Of a stretch of DNA of 64,000 bases, positions 869-37,596 are shown in pieces. Position numbers and translations under genes: made by a program. Source of the stretch: Thiothrix subterranea (GTDB lineage: Bacteria > Pseudomonadota > Gammaproteobacteria > Thiotrichales > Thiotrichaceae); the NCBI RefSeq assembly GCF_030930995.1, contig NZ_CP133217.1:1054001-1118000 (forward strand), in the 5' to 3' direction. A model generated the notes under the pieces. That model saw nothing but the letters and a program-made list of their open reading frames with translations. It searched no databases and was not told the origin of the DNA. Every line of letters begins with the position of its first letter. Positions within the stretch are counted from its first letter, which is position 1.

Positions 869-903
869 TACCTAGTTTTCACTAAAAAATAACAAAGTTT
901 TAC

Positions 904-1003
904 TTGAAAAATTGAAAAGTCAATTGTATGCTTAATGAGCATGTTAGTTGTTGTTCATTTAATTAATGATGCATTAAATAACGTATTTTTATAAGTTATT
1001 TAA
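904..1003 (+). promoter_or_regulatory. Candidate promoter and leader hairpin of the C39 cassette
   Basis: A sigma-70-like pair is visible: TTGAAA at 904-909, a 17-bp spacer, and TATGCT at 927-932. It would give a leader of about 115 nt ahead of the gene at 1056. Within the leader, TTAAATAAC (974-982) and GTTATTTAA (995-1003) form a perfect 9-bp stem with a 12-nt loop. A good Shine-Dalgarno, AAGGAG, lies about 10 nt before the ATG at 1056. The region is very AT-rich, so chance promoter matches are easy to find. Confidence 0.4.
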
Positions 1004-1055
1004 ATTTGTTGGACTCTAAGTTCGATGTATTCAATCAATAAAGGAGTTTTACCTT

Positions 1056-1364
1056 ATGAAGTTTGTTTCAAGTGTTGCCGTATTGCTGATTTTATCTTCT
1101 GCTGCCACTTATGCAGATAGCCCGGACATACTGAACTCAGTACCCCAAGATTCTGTTCAAGTGATGTCTAAAAACGATGCAGGGAAACTACGAGGTGGTT
1201 ACAAATTGTGTGTTATTAACCCCAGAAGCATTGGGTATGGACAGTGCACTACTAATCGATACACAACTTATCAGGGCGGTAGCTCTAGTAATGGAGTTGT
1301 AAGTAAGACCTATCAGGGAATTGAAATAGGTTGGTTTGGATCAAAGTATTATGTAGCTCGATAA
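1056..1364 (+). CDS. Small secreted protein with Sec signal and internal double-glycine leader
   Basis: This 102-residue protein has no family I recognise. Residues 1-20 form a clear Sec signal peptide (basic start, hydrophobic core, cleavage after TYA). Residues 37-48 read MSKNDAGKLRGG, which fits the double-glycine leader consensus of C39-processed bacteriocins: hydrophobic at -12, acidic at -8, small/hydrophobic at -7, Leu at -4, Gly-Gly at -2/-1. The part after GG (54 residues) contains two cysteines (C52, C64) that could pair, and is rich in Gly, Ser, Thr and Tyr. AAGGAG precedes the ATG by about 10 nt. A C39 peptidase lipoprotein is encoded downstream on the same strand, so I infer that this protein is its substrate. 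It could instead be a secreted peptide toxin, a surface fibre subunit or a signalling peptide. Confidence 0.75.
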   Translation: MKFVSSVAVLLILSSAATYADSPDILNSVPQDSVQVMSKNDAGKLRGGYKLCVINPRSIGYGQCTTNRYTTYQGGSSSNGVVSKTYQGIEIGWFGSKYYVAR

Positions 1365-1379
1365 AAAATACTTTTGAGA

Positions 1380-1416
1380 TGGTGTGTTCCTTGTTTTCTG
1401 GAACACGCCATTATTT
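1380..1416 (+). terminator. Hairpin after the small secreted protein gene
   Basis: TGGTGTGTTCC (1380-1390) pairs with GGAACACGCCA (1400-1410) through 11 pairs, one of them G-T, with a 9-nt loop, followed by TTATTT. The run of T is weak, so it may be a partial terminator that keeps the substrate gene more abundantly transcribed than the genes behind it. Confidence 0.6.
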
Positions 1417-1444
1417 CGCATAAATTTATTTTTACGGTTATATT

Positions 1445-1987
1445 ATGAGTAATAAAAATCTACTGATATTTGTATATATGTTAGCATTGGTTTTTTCTAT
1501 TGGCGCTTGTTCAAATAATGATTCCTCACCAAATAGGCTTAACACTAATTTGAATGATCCACAAATAAAAACTGTAGAGAAATATGAAAATAACATCGAT
1601 TTAATGAAAAATGCTGCTCAACAAGGTGATGTTGTGGCTATGTCTCTTTTAGGGGATAAATATCTTAAAGGAGATGGAGTAGAAAAAGATATTAAGAAAG
1701 GAATAGCATGGCTTACAAATGCTGCTGACAAAGGTAATTCTTTAGCTCAGCAAAGTTTGGGGTATACTTATTTGTTTGAAAGCACTATTCAAAATGATAG
1801 CAAAGCTTTTTTTTGGTTTAAAAAATCGGCTGAACAAGGTGATGGTATATCCCAATTGGAGTTGGCTAATATGTATGCAAATGGTTCGGGAGTAGTTAAA
1901 GATTTAAAGCTTGCATCTCAATGGTTGAAGAAAGCTAATGATAATGGTCTTGACACACCATCAGCCTTAAAGTACTTGCAAAAATAA
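1445..1987 (+). CDS. Sel1-repeat lipoprotein
   Basis: This 180-residue protein starts with a hydrophobic segment ending in a lipobox (SIGAC, Cys about residue 22), so it is probably lipid-anchored. Residues 55-180 hold three to four Sel1-like (TPR-type) repeats, recognisable by recurring units such as AAQQGD...A..LLGD.YLKGDGV and A..WL..AADKGN. Sel1 repeats form alpha-solenoids that bind other proteins, so a scaffold or adaptor role in the periplasm is likely. The gene is AT-rich and lies in the same cassette as the secreted peptide, the beta-barrel and the C39 peptidase. No strong Shine-Dalgarno is seen before the ATG. The precise partner is unknown. Confidence 0.8.
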   Translation: MSNKNLLIFVYMLALVFSIGACSNNDSSPNRLNTNLNDPQIKTVEKYENNIDLMKNAAQQGDVVAMSLLGDKYLKGDGVEKDIKKGIAWLTNAADKGNSLAQQSLGYTYLFESTIQNDSKAFFWFKKSAEQGDGISQLELANMYANGSGVVKDLKLASQWLKKANDNGLDTPSALKYLQK

Positions 1988-2013
1988 AATAGTTTATTTC
2001 ACTCAGAAACCAT

Positions 2014-2041
2014 CATGGGGTTTATTAAGTAATGCCCCATG
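2014..2041 (+). terminator. Short hairpin between Sel1 lipoprotein and beta-barrel genes
   Basis: CATGGGG (2014-2020) and CCCCATG (2035-2041) are perfect inverted arms around a 14-nt AT-rich loop. There is no T tract, so this is more likely an attenuator or mRNA-processing hairpin than a full terminator. It overlaps an in-frame upstream ATG at 2032, which argues for the start at 2062. Confidence 0.4.
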
Positions 2042-2061
2042 AGTTAAATAATGGTAGTGTC

Positions 2062-2982
2062 ATGTTTTCTTTAAAAGTTCTGTTACAGTGCTGTATCTTC
2101 TTGGCTGTTGTTTTTAGTAATGTACAAGTATTGGCTGATGAAGGTGATTCGGCACTAACTACTATAGGCAAGAAGGATGAAAACACCAAAAGCCACCTTT
2201 TATTCCTGCGGGAATCTGAAGTCCTTCTCAAACCAAAAGACATGTATTTTTCACTAGGTTTTAACTACAGCACTGATGAAAAGCAGATAAACCTCAGGAA
2301 AAGCAAAGACAGATCTTTTTCTATCCCATTGAGTATTGGTTACGGTGTTACCCAAGACACCGAAGTCAATGCCTCAATTGCGCTAATCCAGAATAAATCC
2401 GAAACGGCAACCATTAACAGCGTCGTCAGTAACAATGGTTCAGGTATTGGGAATGCCACTATCGGCGCAATGCGTAAGCTGAAAGCTGAATCAAACACGT
2501 CCCCTTCCATCACGGCTTCTGCCAACCTCAGCTTTCCGCTAGATAAAAAGTCAAATTCCAGTGATGCCAGCAAGTTAGCCGTAGGTTCAAACTTCAGGAC
2601 GGCTGCCGTAGGACTTGGCATATCCAAATCCATAGACCCTGCCGTGGTATTCTTAAATGTTGGTTATAACCATATCCTGGCGGATGATCAGGATGGTATC
2701 CGCACCCAACCGGGCAAAGCACTCACCTACAGCATAGGTTCAGGGCTTGCCGTCAACCGCTCTATTAGCATGTCGGGGCGGATTTCAGGGCAATATCAGA
2801 CAGAAACCCAATACAACGGAAAAGCCCTGAATGGCTCAAGTTCTGAGCCTATTTCACTGGGTGGGACGGTAGATTATCGATTAGATGATAAAACCCGCCT
2901 TGAAACCAGTTTTGATGTTGGGCTAACCAATGACGCAAGCGATGTTGGCATGGGGCTAACGCTTATCCGTAATGTCCAATGA
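2062..2982 (+). CDS. Outer-membrane beta-barrel protein of the C39 cassette
   Basis: I take the ATG at 2062 because it places a normal signal peptide at the N-terminus (hydrophobic core, cleavage near VLA-DEG). An in-frame ATG at 2032 would add ten polar residues. The mature part, about 280 residues, alternates polar and hydrophobic residues in many short strands with Gly/Asn/Ser turns, for example FSLGFNYS, IPLSIGYGV and TEVNASIALI. It ends in a strand-like segment (GMGLTLIRNVQ), as expected of a transporter-type barrel similar to the MetA/FapF-like families. A barrel next to a C39 peptidase lipoprotein recalls the Pseudomonas Fap amyloid secretion system (FapF with FapD). That parallel is inference. 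Its stop overlaps the next ATG by 4 bp (ATGA). Confidence 0.7.
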   Translation: MFSLKVLLQCCIFLAVVFSNVQVLADEGDSALTTIGKKDENTKSHLLFLRESEVLLKPKDMYFSLGFNYSTDEKQINLRKSKDRSFSIPLSIGYGVTQDTEVNASIALIQNKSETATINSVVSNNGSGIGNATIGAMRKLKAESNTSPSITASANLSFPLDKKSNSSDASKLAVGSNFRTAAVGLGISKSIDPAVVFLNVGYNHILADDQDGIRTQPGKALTYSIGSGLAVNRSISMSGRISGQYQTETQYNGKALNGSSSEPISLGGTVDYRLDDKTRLETSFDVGLTNDASDVGMGLTLIRNVQ

Positions 2983-3677
2983 TTTATAAAGTGCGGCACA
3001 ATCTCCCCATCCTATTGGCTATTTTCTTGAGTGCTTGTACGGTCGAACCCATCGTTAGCAATATGGGCTATGCCGTTAATGCCTCTGGCGACCATTTTAA
3101 AAGCTGGAAAGAGCTTAATGATCAAAGTGTGGTCATGCAGCAATACGACTACTCCTGTGGTGCGGCAGCGTTAGCCACTATCATGAAGTATTACTTTCAG
3201 GATGATGTTACTGAAAAGTCACTGCTGGACTATATCAAGGCAACACTAACGGCAGAAGAATACGCCGTTGTGGAAGAGCACGGCTTGTCCTTCCTTGAAC
3301 TGGAAAAGATAAGCCATTCATTGGGTTATCAATCAGCCAGTGTACGTTTGCAGTTATCCGCATTAAAAGAGTTGGCGGGGCCTGTTGTTGTCTATGTCAG
3401 CACCAAGGATTACCAACATTTCGCGGTGTTCCGTGGTGTCAGGGAAGACCGGATATTTCTGGCAGACCCAAGCCGTGGCAACATGATTTTAACGGTGGAT
3501 GAGTTTTTAGAAGAATGGAAAGGCGAAACATTTATCTTGGGTAAAAAAGGGTTTGGCACACCCGCACAACACCCTTTGGCAGTAATGTTATTGCCTAAAT
3601 TCAGAAACGAAATGGAATTGATCCGCGCCTCAGCATTAAAACCTGCCGCATCAGCAACAAAAATGGTTTTGGAATGA
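2979..3677 (+). CDS. C39-family cysteine peptidase lipoprotein
   Basis: This 232-residue protein begins with a signal peptide and lipobox (LSAC, lipid Cys 20). The C39 peptidase fold follows: QQYDYSCGAAALAT carries the catalytic Cys60, YVSTKDYQHFAVF the His147, and FLADPSRG the Asp163. Unlike bacteriocin exporters (PCAT proteins) there is no ABC transporter domain, so the protease works alone on the periplasmic face of a membrane. FapD of the Fap amyloid system is a comparable stand-alone C39 protein. The gene overlaps both neighbours by 4 bp (ATGA at 2979 and at 3674), which marks a tightly coupled operon with the beta-barrel and subtilase genes. The GG-leader protein at 1056 is the obvious candidate substrate. 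Confidence 0.85.
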   Translation: MIYKVRHNLPILLAIFLSACTVEPIVSNMGYAVNASGDHFKSWKELNDQSVVMQQYDYSCGAAALATIMKYYFQDDVTEKSLLDYIKATLTAEEYAVVEEHGLSFLELEKISHSLGYQSASVRLQLSALKELAGPVVVYVSTKDYQHFAVFRGVREDRIFLADPSRGNMILTVDEFLEEWKGETFILGKKGFGTPAQHPLAVMLLPKFRNEMELIRASALKPAASATKMVLE

Positions 3678-5653
3678 ACAATAAGTTAAATGCTTTTCTG
3701 GTGATAGCGATGGCTGCATTATGTGGTTGGGCGCTCTTTTCTGAAATCGTTGTGGCTGATGATGTTAATGCAGTAGCATTGATCAGACAAAAAACGCTTA
3801 CTGACAAGCAAAGCAAAATCAGGCATGAATTATTGTCATTAACAAATCATGCTGAACGGCAATCCTCATTATCAGAGGCAAACCATCTAGTGATTATTGA
3901 TGTCATCGCTAAAAGCGATCCCCAAGCATTGCTAACGCTACTCATCCAGCATGGGATGAAACCATTGGCAGTTAATGGCAGGATTATTTCAGGGCAAATA
4001 CCCGTTCAACGGTTAGATGAATTGGATGCCCTTGAGGGTTTGAATGAAGTCAAGTTAAGTAAAATAATAACCTCACAAGGCAGCGTGACAACCCAAGGTG
4101 ATATAGCCACAGAATCCAGTGTTGCCCGTCCAGCTTTTGGGGTTGACGGTAGTGGCATAACCGTAGGGGTGATTTCCGATAGTTATAATTGCCTTGGTGG
4201 GGCGGCACAAGACCAAAGTACCCAAGATTTACCCCCTCAAGTGACCATTATGGCAGATGCGCTTGATTGCAGCGGGAGAACAGACGAAGGCAGGGCATTG
4301 ATGCAAATTGTGCATGATATTGCGCCGGGTGCAAAACTGTTATTCCATAGTGGCGAGAATGGCACTGCCACCACTGCGAATGCTATTCTGAAAATGGTGT
4401 CCGATTATAAGGCCGATATTATTGTAGATGATTTCAAGGCAATCTCCGCCAACTTTTTCCAAGAGGATGCCGTAACCCAAGCCACCCAAAAAGCAGTGAA
4501 GGCAGGGGTTGTTTATGTGACCGCAGCAGGCAATGAAGGGCGCAATGCTTACCAAAGTACCTATCACGAATACACCGATAAGGTGTTAAAACTGAATGCC
4601 CATAATTTTGCTACAGATGGCAGCACCGACATTTATCAACGCATTATCGTTCCCGAAGGTGTCGGTTTTAACCTCATGCTACAATGGGATTCTCCCGCTT
4701 ATACCATTAGTGGTTCGCCCGGTTCACAGAGTGATCTGGATATTTTTATTTTCAATAAAAACCATACCCGAATCCTTGCCGCATCAACCTTTGATAATAT
4801 CGGCAAAGACCCTATTGAAGACTTGTACTTTTTTAATGATGTGGGGTCAGGTGAGACAGAATTTGATATTGTCATTACCAAAGCATCTGGGGCTTTACCT
4901 CAGTTAATGAAATACATCATATTAAACAGTATTGATGGCATCATTGGTGAATATGCCACTAATAGCAGCGGAATTTTTGGTCATGCTGATTCTGCTTCCA
5001 TTATCACGGTGGGAGCAAGCAATTATATGAATACACCTAAGTATGGTCAATTTCCCGCATTAGTTGAATATTATTCTTCGGCTGGTGGTAGCTCAATACT
5101 GTTTGATATTAACGGTAATCGGTTAAGCACTCCCATTACTAACCATAAGCCTGACATTACTGCACCCGATGATGTAGATACTACTTTCTTTGGAAATCAA
5201 GATACAGACAATAATGGTTTCCCTAATATTGCTGGCACATCCGCCGCAGCCCCTCATGTTGCAGGTATTGCTGCATTACTCTTGCAAGTTAAACCGACGT
5301 TGCAACCTGTCGATATAAAAAATATCCTTAATGAAACGGCGATTGATATAACCCAAATAAACAACAAAGCTAAAAACACCTTACCCACGGGTTTTGACTT
5401 TGATAGTGGGTATGGCTTAGTTAATGCGGAAGCTGCCATCAATTTGGCAAAGAACTATCAACCGTCCATTCCCCCCGATAATTCGGATGGGAATATGGGG
5501 GATATTACGGTTAATAACCCTAATCAGCTTGGCGGCGGCGGGGCATTTGATTTATTTTATATTGTTGCACTCTTTGTTTTGCTGGCTAATGGGTATTTCA
5601 GGGCTGGAAATAAACACATGGAATTATTTCCGAAAAATAAGCACAACCTGTGA
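3674..5653 (+). CDS. Subtilisin-like (S8) serine protease with GlyGly-CTERM-like tail
   Basis: This 659-residue protein has an N-terminal Sec signal (about residues 1-28), a pro-like region with a short repeat-binding domain (85-135), and an S8 catalytic domain. The triad is readable: Asp169 in GVISDSYNC, His214 in IVHDIAPGA and Ser523 in GTSAAAPHVAG, with Asn287 of AAGNEG as the oxyanion residue. The C-terminus has a Gly cluster (GGGG, 620-623), one hydrophobic helix (about 625-641) and a basic end. This is the layout of GlyGly-CTERM proteins that are processed by rhombosortase and exported by type II secretion. No rhombosortase is in the window. It has a paralogue at 35464-37596 with a different C-terminal module. 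It is last in the overlapping operon and likely activates or degrades exported substrates at the surface. Confidence 0.88.
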   Translation: MNNKLNAFLVIAMAALCGWALFSEIVVADDVNAVALIRQKTLTDKQSKIRHELLSLTNHAERQSSLSEANHLVIIDVIAKSDPQALLTLLIQHGMKPLAVNGRIISGQIPVQRLDELDALEGLNEVKLSKIITSQGSVTTQGDIATESSVARPAFGVDGSGITVGVISDSYNCLGGAAQDQSTQDLPPQVTIMADALDCSGRTDEGRALMQIVHDIAPGAKLLFHSGENGTATTANAILKMVSDYKADIIVDDFKAISANFFQEDAVTQATQKAVKAGVVYVTAAGNEGRNAYQSTYHEYTDKVLKLNAHNFATDGSTDIYQRIIVPEGVGFNLMLQWDSPAYTISGSPGSQSDLDIFIFNKNHTRILAASTFDNIGKDPIEDLYFFNDVGSGETEFDIVITKASGALPQLMKYIILNSIDGIIGEYATNSSGIFGHADSASIITVGASNYMNTPKYGQFPALVEYYSSAGGSSILFDINGNRLSTPITNHKPDITAPDDVDTTFFGNQDTDNNGFPNIAGTSAAAPHVAGIAALLLQVKPTLQPVDIKNILNETAIDITQINNKAKNTLPTGFDFDSGYGLVNAEAAINLAKNYQPSIPPDNSDGNMGDITVNNPNQLGGGGAFDLFYIVALFVLLANGYFRAGNKHMELFPKNKHNL

Positions 5654-5664
5654 TCAAGGTGATG

Positions 5665-7968
5665 TTACTTGTCGCGCCGTTTTGCCCCATTGGTAGTTGA
5701 TTTTCGTCCACTTAAATCAGCCTTGGGCTTCGGCGGCAACCCCGTATGCTGCGTCAACATCTTCCCACCCTGCGGCTTACCCGCATTCGGTTTGTTCGCT
5801 GCCACTTGCGCGGGCTTCCCCACCCGCTTCTGATGCTCCCCGCCCTTATTCTTGCGCCGATGCGCCTCATACACCAACTGTTCCTCGCCCGCTTTGTAAT
5901 GCGGGATCAACTGGTTTTCGCCATCGCCAATCAATTCCTGCCGCCCCATCTCTGCCATCGCCTTACGCAGCAGTGGCCAGTTCTTCGGGTCGTGCCAGCG
6001 CAAAAACGCTTTGTGCAGCTTGCGCTGTTCCGGTGATTTCGCGGTGGCGACCTTTTCGCTTTTGTAGGTGACTTTGTGCAGCGGGTTTTTGTCGGTGTGG
6101 TACATGGTGGTGGCGGAAGCCATCGGTGAGGGGTAAAAGGCTTGCACTTGGTCGGCGCGGAAGCCGTTTTTCTTCAGCCACAGCGCGAGGTTAAGCATGT
6201 CTTCGTCGGACGTGCCGGGGTGCGCGGCGATGAAATACGGGATCAAATATTGTTCTTTGCCCGCTTCCTTGGTGTATTTCTCGAACAGGCGTTTGAATTC
6301 GTCATACGCACCGATGCCCGGTTTCATCATTTTGGACAGGGGGCCGGACTCGGTGTGTTCCGGTGCAATTTTTAAATACCCGCCGACGTGGTGCGTCACC
6401 AATTCTTTGACGTATTCGGGGTCTTTGATGGCAAGGTCATAGCGCACCCCTGAACCGATCAGGATTTTCTTGATACCGGGCAAGGTACGTGCTTCGCGGT
6501 ACAATTCCTTCAAGGCGGCGTGGTCGGTATTGAGGTTATGGCACACGTCGGGGTAAACGCACGCAGGTTTGCGGCACGCGGCTTCGATCTTCGGGTCTTT
6601 GCAGGCGAGGCGGTACATATTCGCGGTGGGGCCGCCAAGGTCGGAAATCACCCCGGTAAACCCTGGCACTTTGTCGCGGATTTCCTCGACTTCGCGGATG
6701 ATGGATTCCTTGGAACGGCTTTGGATAATGCGCCCTTCGTGTTCGGTAATCGAACAGAAGGTGCAGCCGCCAAAGCAGCCGCGCATGATGTTCACCGAGA
6801 AACGGATCATGTCATAGGCGGGGATTTTTACGCCGTTATAGGACGGGTGCGGCAAGCGGGCGTAGGGCAGCCCGAACACGAAATCCATTTCCGGCGTGGT
6901 TAGCGGAATCGGTGGCGGGTTCAGCCATACGTCAATGTTGCCGTGTTTTTGCACCAAGGCGCGGGCGTTGCCGGGGTTGGTTTCCAAGTGCAGCACGCGA
7001 TTGGCATGGGCGTACAAGGCTTTGTCTTTGCTGACTTTTTCGTAAGACGGCAGGCGAATCACGGTGGTGTCGCGGTCTAAACGGGCGCGGGGGTGGAAGA
7101 TCAGTTTGTGTTCGTCGGGGCGTTTGCTGCGCGGGTCTTCGTATTCAAACCATTGTACATTGCGCTTTTCGACTTCGCATTCGCTCATCTCGGTGGTGTT
7201 GAGGTAGGGGTTGATAATGCGGTCGATTTTGCCCGGTTGGTCGATGCGGCTGGAGTCGATTTCCATCCAGCCTTGCGGGGTGTCGCGGCGGATGAAGGCG
7301 GTGCCGCGCACGTCGGTGATGCTGGAAACGGGTTCGCCGGAGGCGATGCGGTGCGCGACTTCGACCACGGCGCGTTCGGCGTTGCCGTACAGCAATAGGT
7401 CGGCGGCGGCATCCATCAGGATCGAGGTGCGGACTTTTTCCTGCCAATAATCGAAATGCGCAATGCGCCGCAACGAGGCTTCGATTCCGCCGATAATGAT
7501 GGGCACGTCGGGGTAGGCTTCGCGGCAGCGGTGCGTGTACACCAACGTGGCGCGGTCGGGGCGTTTGCCTGCCATGCCGCCGGGGGTGTAAACATCGTCG
7601 GAGCGCGTTTTGCGGTCAGCGGTGTAGCGGTTGATCATCGAGTCCATATTGCCCGCCGCCACGCCGAAGAACAGGTTGGGTGCGCCGAGTGCCATGAACG
7701 GTTCTTTGGAATGCCAATCCGGTTGCGCAATGATGCCGACGCGGAAACCTTGCGCTTCCAACATCCGCCCGATGACTGCCATGCCGAACGAGGGGTGGTC
7801 GACGTAAGCATCGCCCGTGACGATAATGATGTCGCAGGAATCCCAGCCCAGAGCGTCCATTTCCGCACGACTCATGGGGAGATACGGCGAAGTGTCATAG
7901 CATTCCGCCCAGTATTTAGGGTGGTCGAACAGGGCGACAGGTACGTGGGGATTGGCGTTGGGCAGCAT
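5665..7968 (-). CDS. ygiQ: YgiQ-family radical SAM protein
   Basis: The 767-residue product matches the YgiQ family (UPF0313). It has an N-terminal cobalamin-binding-like region ([20 protein letters not shown]), a radical SAM core with the cysteine motif [11 protein letters not shown] near residue 390, and a basic Lys/Arg/Gly-rich tail after residue 690. The biochemical role of the family is not established. The start at 7968 gives the usual N-terminus ([19 protein letters not shown]). The stop is only 11 bp from the convergent stop of the subtilase gene, with no terminator between them. A 95%-identical internal fragment of this gene lies at 1-656 in the same orientation, so the cassette between them is flanked by direct repeats. 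Confidence 0.93.
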
Positions 7969-35463: not shown

Positions 35464-37596
35464 TTACTGTTCGAGTTTGTCTTCTTTGGTGGCATCCGAC
35501 AAGGTGTCCTTACCTGGGCCACCCCGCAAAATGTCACGTCCAGGGCCACCGGACAATAGATCGTCTCCATCTCCACCGTAGAGAATGTCCTTGCCATCAC
35601 CACCTGAAAGCTTGTCATTCCCCGCGTCACCACAAATGAGGTCGTTACCTTCTTTGCCGTCGATAGAATCGTTGCCACCTAGTCCGACAATGACATCATC
35701 GCCTGCGGTACCAACAAGGTTATCCGCGCCTGTAGTGCCTAGAATAGTGGCAAGCTTGCCATCGCAGTACCAAGCTTGGGGCGGAGAAATTTTATCTACG
35801 GCACGTAGCGCATCCACGAATCCGTAACCCGTTCCATAATCGAAGCCCCGATCAAAATTTGCGGTATTGGGATCATTCATATCCCGTGCGGTGCTTTTTA
35901 GGGCGTTGTAAACATGATCCGGCGAGGCAAACGGATTCCTTTCCCGCATCAGGGCGGCGACACCCGCCAAGTGTGGGGCGGACGCCGACGTACCAAAGAA
36001 ATCAGGATACCCGGAATTATCCAAGTCAGGGCCACTGAAAAACGATGTGTCCACACCGTCAGGGCCAATGATCGCAGGTTGTTCGCGTTGTTCCGGTTTT
36101 GCTAAGCGATCGCCTTTGCTATCAAACAGAATGGGGGTTCCACCTGCGGATGAGTAACTTTCTACAAGGGCTGGACTCTGCCCAAATTTTGGGGTTTCAC
36201 GATAATAGGCCGCTCCCACTCCCATACCGCCACGGCTATTGGCGTGACTGGTTATTGTACTGCTGTTGGTGTCGTTTTGATCCGTGATGGTTGCGCCATA
36301 AACAATGGTTTTCAATTTGCCGGGTTTATTGCCTTCCAACCTAGCAATACGGACACTTACCGTGAATGGTCGGTCGGGGAATGGATTGGCTGTAGCAAAG
36401 CCATCCAGTGCATCCATGCCTATATTGGGTATATTGCTGTAGAACTGAAACGCCTCACAATTATTGCCCGCATAGAGCAGCAGACCAAGATCATTGGTAG
36501 CACCTGCGCCACCGGCTGAAGTAAACGGTTCATCCCATTGCAGTAACAATTGGAACGTAGCGCCGGGAGGAATTTCAATTTCAAAACAACTATCCACCGC
36601 CGCACTCGGATCGAAATCGACAAGAGGCAATCCCAATGAGGTATCTTCTGCATAGTCCGTGAATTCCGCTGAATCGCGCCCGCTGTTACCGGCAGAACTG
36701 AAATAGGTTACTCCCCGGCTTTTTACCTGATCAATGGCTTGGGAGATGATCCCATCTTGGAAGTAAGGTTCGGTCAGATAGAAGGCATCATCGACGATAA
36801 CTTTTGCCCCTGCATCTGCCAGATCAATAATGCCTTGTGCAAAGTTGGCCAGCCCACCATCAGCAGTGTGGAACAGCAAGGGAGCGCCGGGAGCTACATC
36901 GTGGACAACCTCCATGAGGGCGCGGCCTTCATCCACCACGACACTGTCGCAAAAACCTTCTTGCACAGTCTTAACATTGCTAGGTAATTCGCCGTTGGTT
37001 ACACCCAATGCAGCACCTCCCAGACAATTATAACTGTCAGATAGTACCCCCACGGGGACGGTTTTTCCGCTTACATCCAAGCTGCGTCGTGCTTTGTCAG
37101 CTTGAATGGCTTGATCGCCTTGGCTTTTTACTTTTCCGCTGGTTTCGTTCCAGTGGTTGGTGGAGAGGAGGGCGGAACGTGCAAAACGTAATTCTGTGAC
37201 ATTTTCCATTTCTGTCAATTTATTGACGGGGAAACGCCCTGAAACGACGCGCCCAAAGGTGGCGACATTGTTCATACCCAGCGATGTCAGCTTTTGTGCC
37301 AAAGCGGTGGTATTGCCATCGGTAGCAATCGCATCAATGACCACATAGCCGTTTACTGTGGGTGGTAAGAGGGGGCTAATCAAGGCGTTTGGCGCTGCAA
37401 GACTTCTGGTGGTACGGGCATTGCTAGAGGCTGCAAGCTGGTCTAACCCACCTTGGAGCTTGCTTGGGCTGCGCGGTGATTGCATAAGTTGTTGTAAGGC
37501 TGCTGGTGTTTGTGTTGTCGCTGTTTCCGCGCAAACTGTGCTCCCCACGTTGAAACCGGCTGCAATCATGCAACCTGTCAGGATGTTTTTTAACAT
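35464..37596 (-). CDS. Subtilisin-like (S8) serine protease with RTX calcium-binding repeats
   Basis: This 710-residue protein has an N-terminal signal-like segment ([24 protein letters not shown] is close to a Sec signal), a prodomain-like region, and an S8 catalytic domain closely matching that at 3674: [15 protein letters not shown] (Asp), [15 protein letters not shown] (His) and [17 protein letters not shown] (Ser). The last 90 residues hold about six RTX nonapeptide repeats (GGxGxDxL type), which bind calcium and usually mark type I secretion substrates. A Sec-like N-terminus combined with RTX repeats is uncommon, so the export route is unclear. It is a paralogue of the GlyGly-CTERM subtilase. 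No T1SS genes are nearby. Confidence 0.88.

Follow-up and report, generated by a model that had tools for sequence, protein, structure and literature searches.

Five consecutive plus-strand genes (positions 1056 to 5653) in a 64,000-nucleotide stretch of the Thiothrix subterranea genome, here called the window, encode a small peptide precursor, a Sel1-repeat lipoprotein, an outer membrane beta-barrel resembling FapF of the Pseudomonas Fap system, a free-standing C39 peptidase lipoprotein, and an S8-family protease. The barrel, C39, and S8 genes form a trio that is found in the same order at five loci in three genera, and the peptide gene and the partner gene behind it vary or are absent across these loci. 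On balance, we lean toward the interpretation that the cassette is a peptide export-and-maturation system with exchangeable substrates, of the same kind as Fap and the Nap island of Neisseria gonorrhoeae. Other loci and genomes are designated by L and G numbers, and the genome of T. subterranea itself is G000.

The barrel-C39-S8 trio

An initial annotation of this DNA, made from the sequence alone, had described five consecutive, AT-rich genes on one strand. An open reading frame (ORF) listing confirmed all five, with products of 102, 180, 316, 232, and 659 amino acids (aa). The G+C content of 900 to 5653 is 41.2%, compared with 50.0% for the window as a whole and 58% for the ygiQ gene next to the cassette. 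The 4-bp overlaps that had been noted are present at the barrel/C39 and C39/S8 junctions. A Pfam scan identified Sel1 (8.6e-25), Phenol_MetA_deg (4.4e-10), Peptidase_C39 (1.4e-24), and Peptidase_S8 (1.2e-20) domains in the last four proteins, and Pfam and NCBIfam scans at E 0.1 gave no family for the small first protein.

The C39 gene (2979 to 3677) encodes a 232-aa protein. In C39 peptidases, catalysis depends on Cys, His, and Asp residues and an oxyanion Gln; the corresponding residues Q54, C60, H147, and D163 are invariant in all four C39 proteins that were aligned, as is the lipobox residue Cys20 (lipobox by eye), and the annotation as a stand-alone C39 lipoprotein stands. The nearest solved structures by sequence are double-glycine (GG) peptidase domains of peptide exporters, and the Pfam scan found no ABC domain in this protein or in the other four cassette genes. 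Against the FapD model NF058616, the protein scored 92.5 of 330 bits, which is below the cut-off.

The barrel gene (2062 to 2982, 306 aa) is listed as an ORF starting at 2032 (316 aa). Its start is probably better placed at 2062 (MFSLKVLL...), because 2032 lies inside a predicted hairpin (2013 to 2042, plus strand; 1985 to 2046 folds at -15.0 kcal/mol, z -3.04) and the homologue in G001 begins near 2062. The assignment as an outer membrane barrel rests on the Phenol_MetA_deg domain and on homology to FapF by both sequence and fold. A profile search (hmmsearch) with the barrel finds FapF at E 5e-21. The structure prediction proposed in the initial annotation gave an AlphaFold model from eight sequences (pLDDT 78.9, pTM 0.70) for which Foldseek returned FapF as the best match (TM 0.75, E 5.3e-21). 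The model contains one helix at residues 7 to 35, largely the signal peptide, and has low confidence at 28 to 57 of the 306- to 316-aa protein. The barrel scored 32 of 700 bits against the FapF model NF058560 and is therefore not a FapF equivalog.

The S8 gene (3674 to 5653) encodes a 659-aa protein that matches PF00082 at 74.4 bits (cut-off, 21.8), with D169, N287, and S523 at subtilase-like positions (GTSAAAPH and AAGN motifs). Subtilases carry their catalytic His in an HGTHVAGI motif, and the cassette S8 sequence has no recognisable copy of HGTH. When residues are counted back from APGA without gaps, Glu205 in TDEGRALMQIVHDIAPGA falls at the His position, and by the same count DEGRALMQIVHDIAPGA holds this Glu aligned to the first His of HGTHVAGI; Glu205 probably stands in place of the subtilase His. 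A weak HMMER alignment to 9ues (i-Evalue 0.021) puts residues other than Glu205 at that position, and His214 is also invariant in our alignment. The surrounding DEGR..HD motif is present in the five trio S8 proteins and in the six relatives readable there (L055 to L059 and L061; L060, in the wrong frame, and L062, not aligned, were left out), and because it is kept in these relatives it is a subfamily trait rather than decay. Sedolisins use a Ser-Glu-Asp set.

The initial annotation had also assigned a GlyGly-CTERM sorting signal to this protease. GGGG, a hydrophobic stretch, and basic residues do occur at the S8 end, but the model TIGR03501 does not match this tail and thus does not support true membership in the GlyGly-CTERM family. 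A Gly-rich hydrophobic tail is present in all five trio S8 proteins and absent from the five relatives readable to their ends (L055 to L059). The protease thus shares with GlyGly-CTERM/rhombosortase systems a Gly-rich, hydrophobic, basic tail and a rhombosortase encoded in the same genome, as far as these systems are described in the available parts of the two sources (PMC3237569, PMC6219818); it differs in the unmatched TIGR03501. The T. subterranea rhombosortase scored 131 bits (cut-off, 84), and scores over this cut-off were obtained in 5/5 trio genomes and 0/14 controls. Elsewhere in the same genome (L048, G000:C2:183406 region), an ORF ending in SGGGGSMPYAGLLLLGLYGLLRSRKGTR has a classical-looking GlyGly-CTERM tail and scored 12.4 bits against TIGR03501 (cut-off, 15.5).

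A C39 search of 57 genomes, the own genome included, gave matches in 13 genomes at 19 places, 16 of which were examined in longer stretches; weak matches inside long ORFs (L014, L018, and L019) were left out. An S8 gene lies beside 4 of these 16 C39 genes (window, G001, G033, and G004). A scan of genome contigs gave 11 C39 loci, one of which (L036) is on the same contig as that of G033. Each of the other 10 matched the barrel (E 0.01), and L035 was the one among them with an S8 gene; the absence of S8 from the rest is weak, because some contigs end soon after C39 (about 1 kb in L042). Together, the trio occurs in the same order in the window, L021, L023 (the same as L036), L024, and L035, where the barrel is in two pieces with about 1.2 kb between them. 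Close S8 homologs (>1200 bits) are present in 4 of 63 genomes of the order, again counting the own genome, and C39 and barrel genes adjoin in 4/4; a class sample of 369 genomes contained no further close S8, the next best scoring 503 bits versus 1264. Overall, the trio is rare and has a patchy distribution, with a conserved gene order. Peptide and Sel1 genes stand next to it only in the window and G001; in G004, two peptides lie about 1.9 Mb or more away from the trio. The conserved neighborhood predicted by the initial annotation therefore holds for the trio in five loci and not for peptide and Sel1; co-occurrence of all five genes was found only in these two places, and a fixed five-gene system was ruled out.

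The S8 gene could be a hitchhiker unrelated to peptide processing, and the distribution of its more distant relatives would fit this: eight relatives with about 38 to 41% identity in their best pieces (L055 to L062), one of them a window paralogue, all lack a C39 match in the 3.7 to 4.7 kb around them. On the other hand, the close S8 adjoins C39 in 5/5 trio loci, and it is these proteins, not the relatives, that carry the Gly-rich tail. We consider the hitchhiker explanation unlikely. The window paralogue (35464 to 37596, minus strand; L056, no C39 match within 4.7 kb around) has a 17-residue motif and an RTX-like glycine-rich C terminus, the latter by eye.

Variable peptides and their partners

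As had been suggested, the first gene (1056 to 1364) encodes a putatively secreted protein with a GG leader. A Sec-like signal of approximately aa 1 to 20 (1056 to 1115), its cleavage site placed by eye, is followed by a GG leader of approximately aa 21 to 48 (1116 to 1199), and we refer to this arrangement as a double leader. The leader ends in ...VQVMSKNDAGKLRGG and the core begins with YKLC...; the predicted mature core of 54 aa (1200 to 1361) has a pI of 9.5, two Cys residues, and the C terminus KYYVAR. Comparison of eight such peptides (28 pairs) gave a mean pairwise identity of 0.43 for the leader versus 0.16 for the mature core, and the two peptides of L035 (Candidatus Thiodiazotropha) have leaders that are 90% common and cores that are unlike. 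The eight cores are 43 to 62 aa long; seven are cationic (pI 9.0 to 10.8), seven contain Cys (six with two and one with four), and seven of the peptides end in [V/A][A/S]R. The motif RG[GE] precedes Y, F, or W in 8/8, which is partly by construction, as the motif also set the boundary. Within the order, 6 of 63 genomes, counting the own genome and a marginal match (E 0.0078), contain the peptide family, as do 2 of the 369 genomes of the class sample, namely, the own genome and one marginal match (E 4.8e-5). When double-leader ORFs were sought by regular expression around free-standing C39 genes, 12 of 25 loci were positive for the C39 strand and 4 of 25 for the opposite one, versus 1 of 14 control tiles.

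The second gene (1445 to 1987) encodes a 180-aa lipoprotein with three stretches of PF08238 and a lipobox ...IGAC (by eye). Small envelope-type proteins of this or other kinds (Sel1 lipoprotein, multi-transmembrane protein, or lipoprotein-like ORF) are encoded directly 3' of the peptide gene in 6 of 10 cases (window, L021 first, L035 both, L079, and G005 first, with L021 second, L077, L078, and G005 second completing the ten). The G001 locus (L021) begins with peptide and Sel1 genes, followed in turn by a gene resembling a transposase (by eye), a core-less leader, a multi-transmembrane gene, a second peptide, barrel, C39, and S8; here, it is a leader-only remnant that precedes the multi-transmembrane gene. 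In L035, a multi-transmembrane protein (hydrophobic stretches by eye) follows each of the two peptides, and in G061 a 212-aa ORF whose start resembles a lipobox lies behind the peptide gene. The multi-transmembrane partner was found in 2 of 63 genomes of the order, both of which had contributed to the query alignment, plus the two copies in L035, and a Pfam scan of four such partners gave no family over the cut-off.

Between G000 and G001, identity is 97% for C39, 92% for S8, and 82% for the barrel versus 53% for the peptide and 41% for Sel1. In G005, two Sel1 genes are present along with a window-like core and a further peptide, and the reading frames are broken in that assembly. The window-like core is 75% identical to the window core across 36 aa and 55% identical in the last 20, and the Sel1 protein encoded behind it is up to 56% identical to that of the window and 40% to that of G001; the second G005 Sel1 is 63 to 80% identical to the G001 protein and 41 to 49% to the window protein. 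The substrate end of the system is modular. Bacteriocin-immunity cassettes are characterized by a fixed leader, a variable core, a co-varying partner, and orphan partners; peptide and immunity-like partner resemble such cassettes, and the Sel1 lipoprotein is a candidate cognate immunity (or chaperone) protein. Sel1 proteins are also known as immunity proteins of type VI effectors.

Proposed route, known systems, and alternative roles

The initial annotation knew of no described system with this exact combination, overlooking the Nap island of N. gonorrhoeae (PMC11798529) and the NCBIfam FilB/FilC models. Like the cassette, the Nap island includes small cationic GG peptides, a free-standing C39 peptidase (NapP), a FapF-like NapF, and an immunity-like NapI in a low-GC island that is held to be horizontally acquired. 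In the accessible part of that report, the genes listed include neither S8 nor Sel1, the mature peptides are 16 to 36 aa long, and the main text nowhere uses the term "signal peptide." The window precursor has a visible Sec-like signal. All Nap-type gene kinds (C39, FapF-like channel, GG peptide, and immunity-like gene) are thus present in the cassette; this likeness is one of gene kinds, with Sel1 in a presumed immunity-like role. The Fap system shares the FapF-type barrel and a periplasmic C39 protein, FapD, that is essential for secretion (PMC5557850). According to the sections of that paper available to us, Fap exports amyloid subunits, and the Fap proteins are said to lack canonical C39 sites; the window peptide has a plain GG site, and no FapF coiled coil is seen in the model of the window barrel, in which residues 28 to 57 have low confidence. 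Pfam and NCBIfam scans of the five cassette proteins gave no match to the FapB, FapC, or FapE amyloid subunits.

The models for FilB and FilC ("putative pilus system," NCBIfam), which we take to be Acinetobacter genes, are matched by C39 (2.8e-25; 89.3 of 475 bits) and barrel (1.3e-6; 28 of 630 bits), both far below the cut-offs. With C39 ABC exporters of class II bacteriocins (PCATs), the cassette has in common the C39 fold and residues, the GG leader, a small Cys-containing peptide, and an adjacent immunity-like gene; it differs in its Sec-like signal before the leader and its free-standing lipoprotein peptidase. A classical ABC bacteriocin system was ruled out, as the cassette contains no ABC gene. 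In the open literature, Fap and Nap surfaced and no description of this gene set was found. Since Fap and Nap already pair a free-standing C39 protein with a FapF-type channel, the window system is a variant rather than a new kind. What sets it apart is the S8 protease as a conserved extra, the Sel1 partner, and the visible Sec-plus-GG leader. We file it under none of Fap, Nap, and Fil, because it falls short of the Fap and Fil equivalog models and Nap was compared by description.

In the route that we favor, the 102-aa precursor would cross the inner membrane via Sec, and the C39 lipoprotein would cut it in the periplasm after R-G-G (R-G-E in several relatives), before an aromatic residue. 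The core of 43 to 62 aa, usually cationic and Cys containing, would leave through the FapF-like channel. The S8 protease would be anchored through its Gly-rich C-terminal tail, either at the surface or within the envelope, and may make a second cut or clear peptide outside, and the Sel1 lipoprotein (in relatives, a multi-transmembrane protein or other lipoprotein) may shield the producer from its own peptide. Of the interpretation in the initial annotation, the Fap-like route, the double-leader substrate, and the extra S8 protease are retained, the trio occurring in five loci; the notion of one fixed five-gene system is not.

Several observations weigh against this interpretation. The peptide is not strictly tied to this C39 protein, because G005 and G061 contain peptides and no C39 match at 1e-5. 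Four of the ten peptide genes have no partner seen directly downstream, and one of the eight peptides (G004b) has no Cys, a pI of 6.8, and a different end. The regular-expression test is weak, as several of the 12 positives look spurious by eye and L023 and L024 gave none. Rhombosortase is not specific to the trio, because both non-trio genomes tested also score over the cut-off, and the structural model of S8 was unusable (pLDDT 38.8). Finally, for the Nap peptides, the nearest published analogues, no inhibition of any tested strain was seen and a role in autolysis is reported (PMC11798529), which counts against a simple weapon role.

The peptides might instead be structural, serving as surface fiber or adhesin subunits as in Fap, with Sel1 or multi-transmembrane proteins as chaperones or assembly factors. 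The FapF fold of the barrel, the matches of barrel and C39 to the FapF/FapD and FilC/FilB models, and the longer secreted proteins seen by eye beside C39 and barrel in L025, L026, and L029 would agree with this. However, the cores of 43 to 62 aa have no evident repeats and are hypervariable even between tandem genes at one locus, and the partner type differs between loci, so that we regard a structural role as quite improbable. As an amyloid subunit, the peptide was rejected for its lack of evident repeats and of any family match.

Nor do we attach much weight to Nap-like self-lysis, in which the targets of the peptides would be the producer cells themselves at a particular stage, with the partner modulating this action. 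Nap is the closest published gene set that was found, but the Nap genes listed in the available text include no S8, and the likeness is by description and not by sequence (PMC11798529).

A role as pheromone-like signals, matured by C39 and S8 and sensed or modulated by the partners as receptors or modulators, is very unlikely: although GG leaders are typical of peptide pheromones and LuxR-like ORFs (by eye, unscanned) lie beside the peptide in L021 (15710 to 16489) and L079 (2205 to 2940), no such regulator is directly beside the window peptide, the cores are larger than usual pheromones, and the partners are not sensor kinases but Sel1 lipoproteins or small membrane proteins that match no Pfam family above the cut-off.

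Returning to the exchangeable-substrate interpretation, a more specific version can be put forward tentatively. The system may be a modular peptide weapon of Gram-negative bacteria in which Sec, a periplasmic C39 protein, and a FapF-like channel replace the usual ABC exporter. The leader would stay fixed while the peptide-immunity cassettes behind it come, go, and are exchanged, and an S8 protease anchored at the surface and using an Asp-Glu-Ser set like that of sedolisins would perform an obligatory second maturation, perhaps at the conserved C-terminal aromatic-V-A/S-R end.

Genomic setting and wider occurrence

The cassette lies between a 5'-truncated copy of ygiQ (1 to about 656, minus strand), which extends past the upstream edge of the window (L002 9147 to about 10656), and an intact ygiQ (5665 to 7968, minus strand; Pfam and sequence comparison), a setting absent from the initial annotation. 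With another truncated copy (L002 5410 to 5946), the ygiQ sequences flank two cargo segments. In G001, ygiQ also directly follows S8. The last 78 nucleotides of the intact window ygiQ are 0.99 identical to the G001 gene versus about 0.5 to the truncated copies, and the rest of the gene shows no clear break. The simplest reading is that the cassette, together with the ygiQ end, recombined into ygiQ from a donor resembling G001 and that the resident 3' part stayed behind. With three successive copies (two 3' fragments and one intact), ygiQ seems to be a place where foreign DNA has entered repeatedly through recombination. A layout like the ygiQ cargo between gene-end copies is seen in L022 (G001:C1:298001-316000), where two tandem modules of barrel, double-leader peptide, and C39 genes, with leaders ...ATEGE before F and ...ATEGK before I, lie between repeated recG-like fragments (by eye).

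Upstream of the cassette, a 9-bp tandem repeat, AAATTATTG (747 to 868), holds overlapping promoter-like hexamers; 22 such hexamers were counted in the region versus 14.2 expected (standard deviation, 3.7), 10 of the 22 in the repeat. A three-unit 27-mer with up to two mismatches was found nowhere else in the own genome, and the repeat was not found at the G001 locus (L021 12000 to 16500). The number of repeats could tune expression. A 13-bp RNA hairpin (1378 to 1412, plus strand, folding prediction) lies between the peptide and Sel1 genes; the segment 1362 to 1446 folds at -21.5 kcal/mol (z -3.95), and a terminator scan did not flag the hairpin. It may be a partial terminator or mRNA stabiliser that could raise the level of peptide over that of the machinery.

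Matches to C39 were also obtained in 180 plasmid records, and among three that were inspected, one Campylobacter and one Acinetobacter plasmid encode double-leader proteins next to a barrel-like protein and a free-standing C39, which hints at a wider spread of the route. On Campylobacter concisus plasmid pCCON16 (L084), two proteins (2674 to 3309 and 7510 to 7947) have Sec-like signals and leaders ...IKGG and ...ILGG, each before Y; a free-standing C39 and a barrel-like protein are encoded alongside (by eye). At 211 aa, the protein at 2674 to 3309 is near in size to the published secreted protein Csep1 (216 to 223 aa in the available text of PMC5893538), and a comparison via solved structures gave no match that would link the two. 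On the small, mobilizable Acinetobacter plasmid pTR11_4 (6.3 kb; L082), a double-leader protein (404 to 970) with ...LSNQEMKDTQGA before VANF... is encoded beside a free-standing C39 gene and an apparent barrel end.

In the Fap paper, as far as its available text goes, the target of FapD is called unclear; FapE, with GG/GA motifs and missing N-terminal peptides, is suspected (PMC5557850). The substrates of the window system show a Sec-plus-GG leader, and because this double leader is obvious, one small operon offers the means to test the channel, the peptidase, and its cleavage site together. Should the interpretation as peptide plus partner be true, the system would represent ABC-independent export of bacteriocin-like peptides with built-in specificity swapping.

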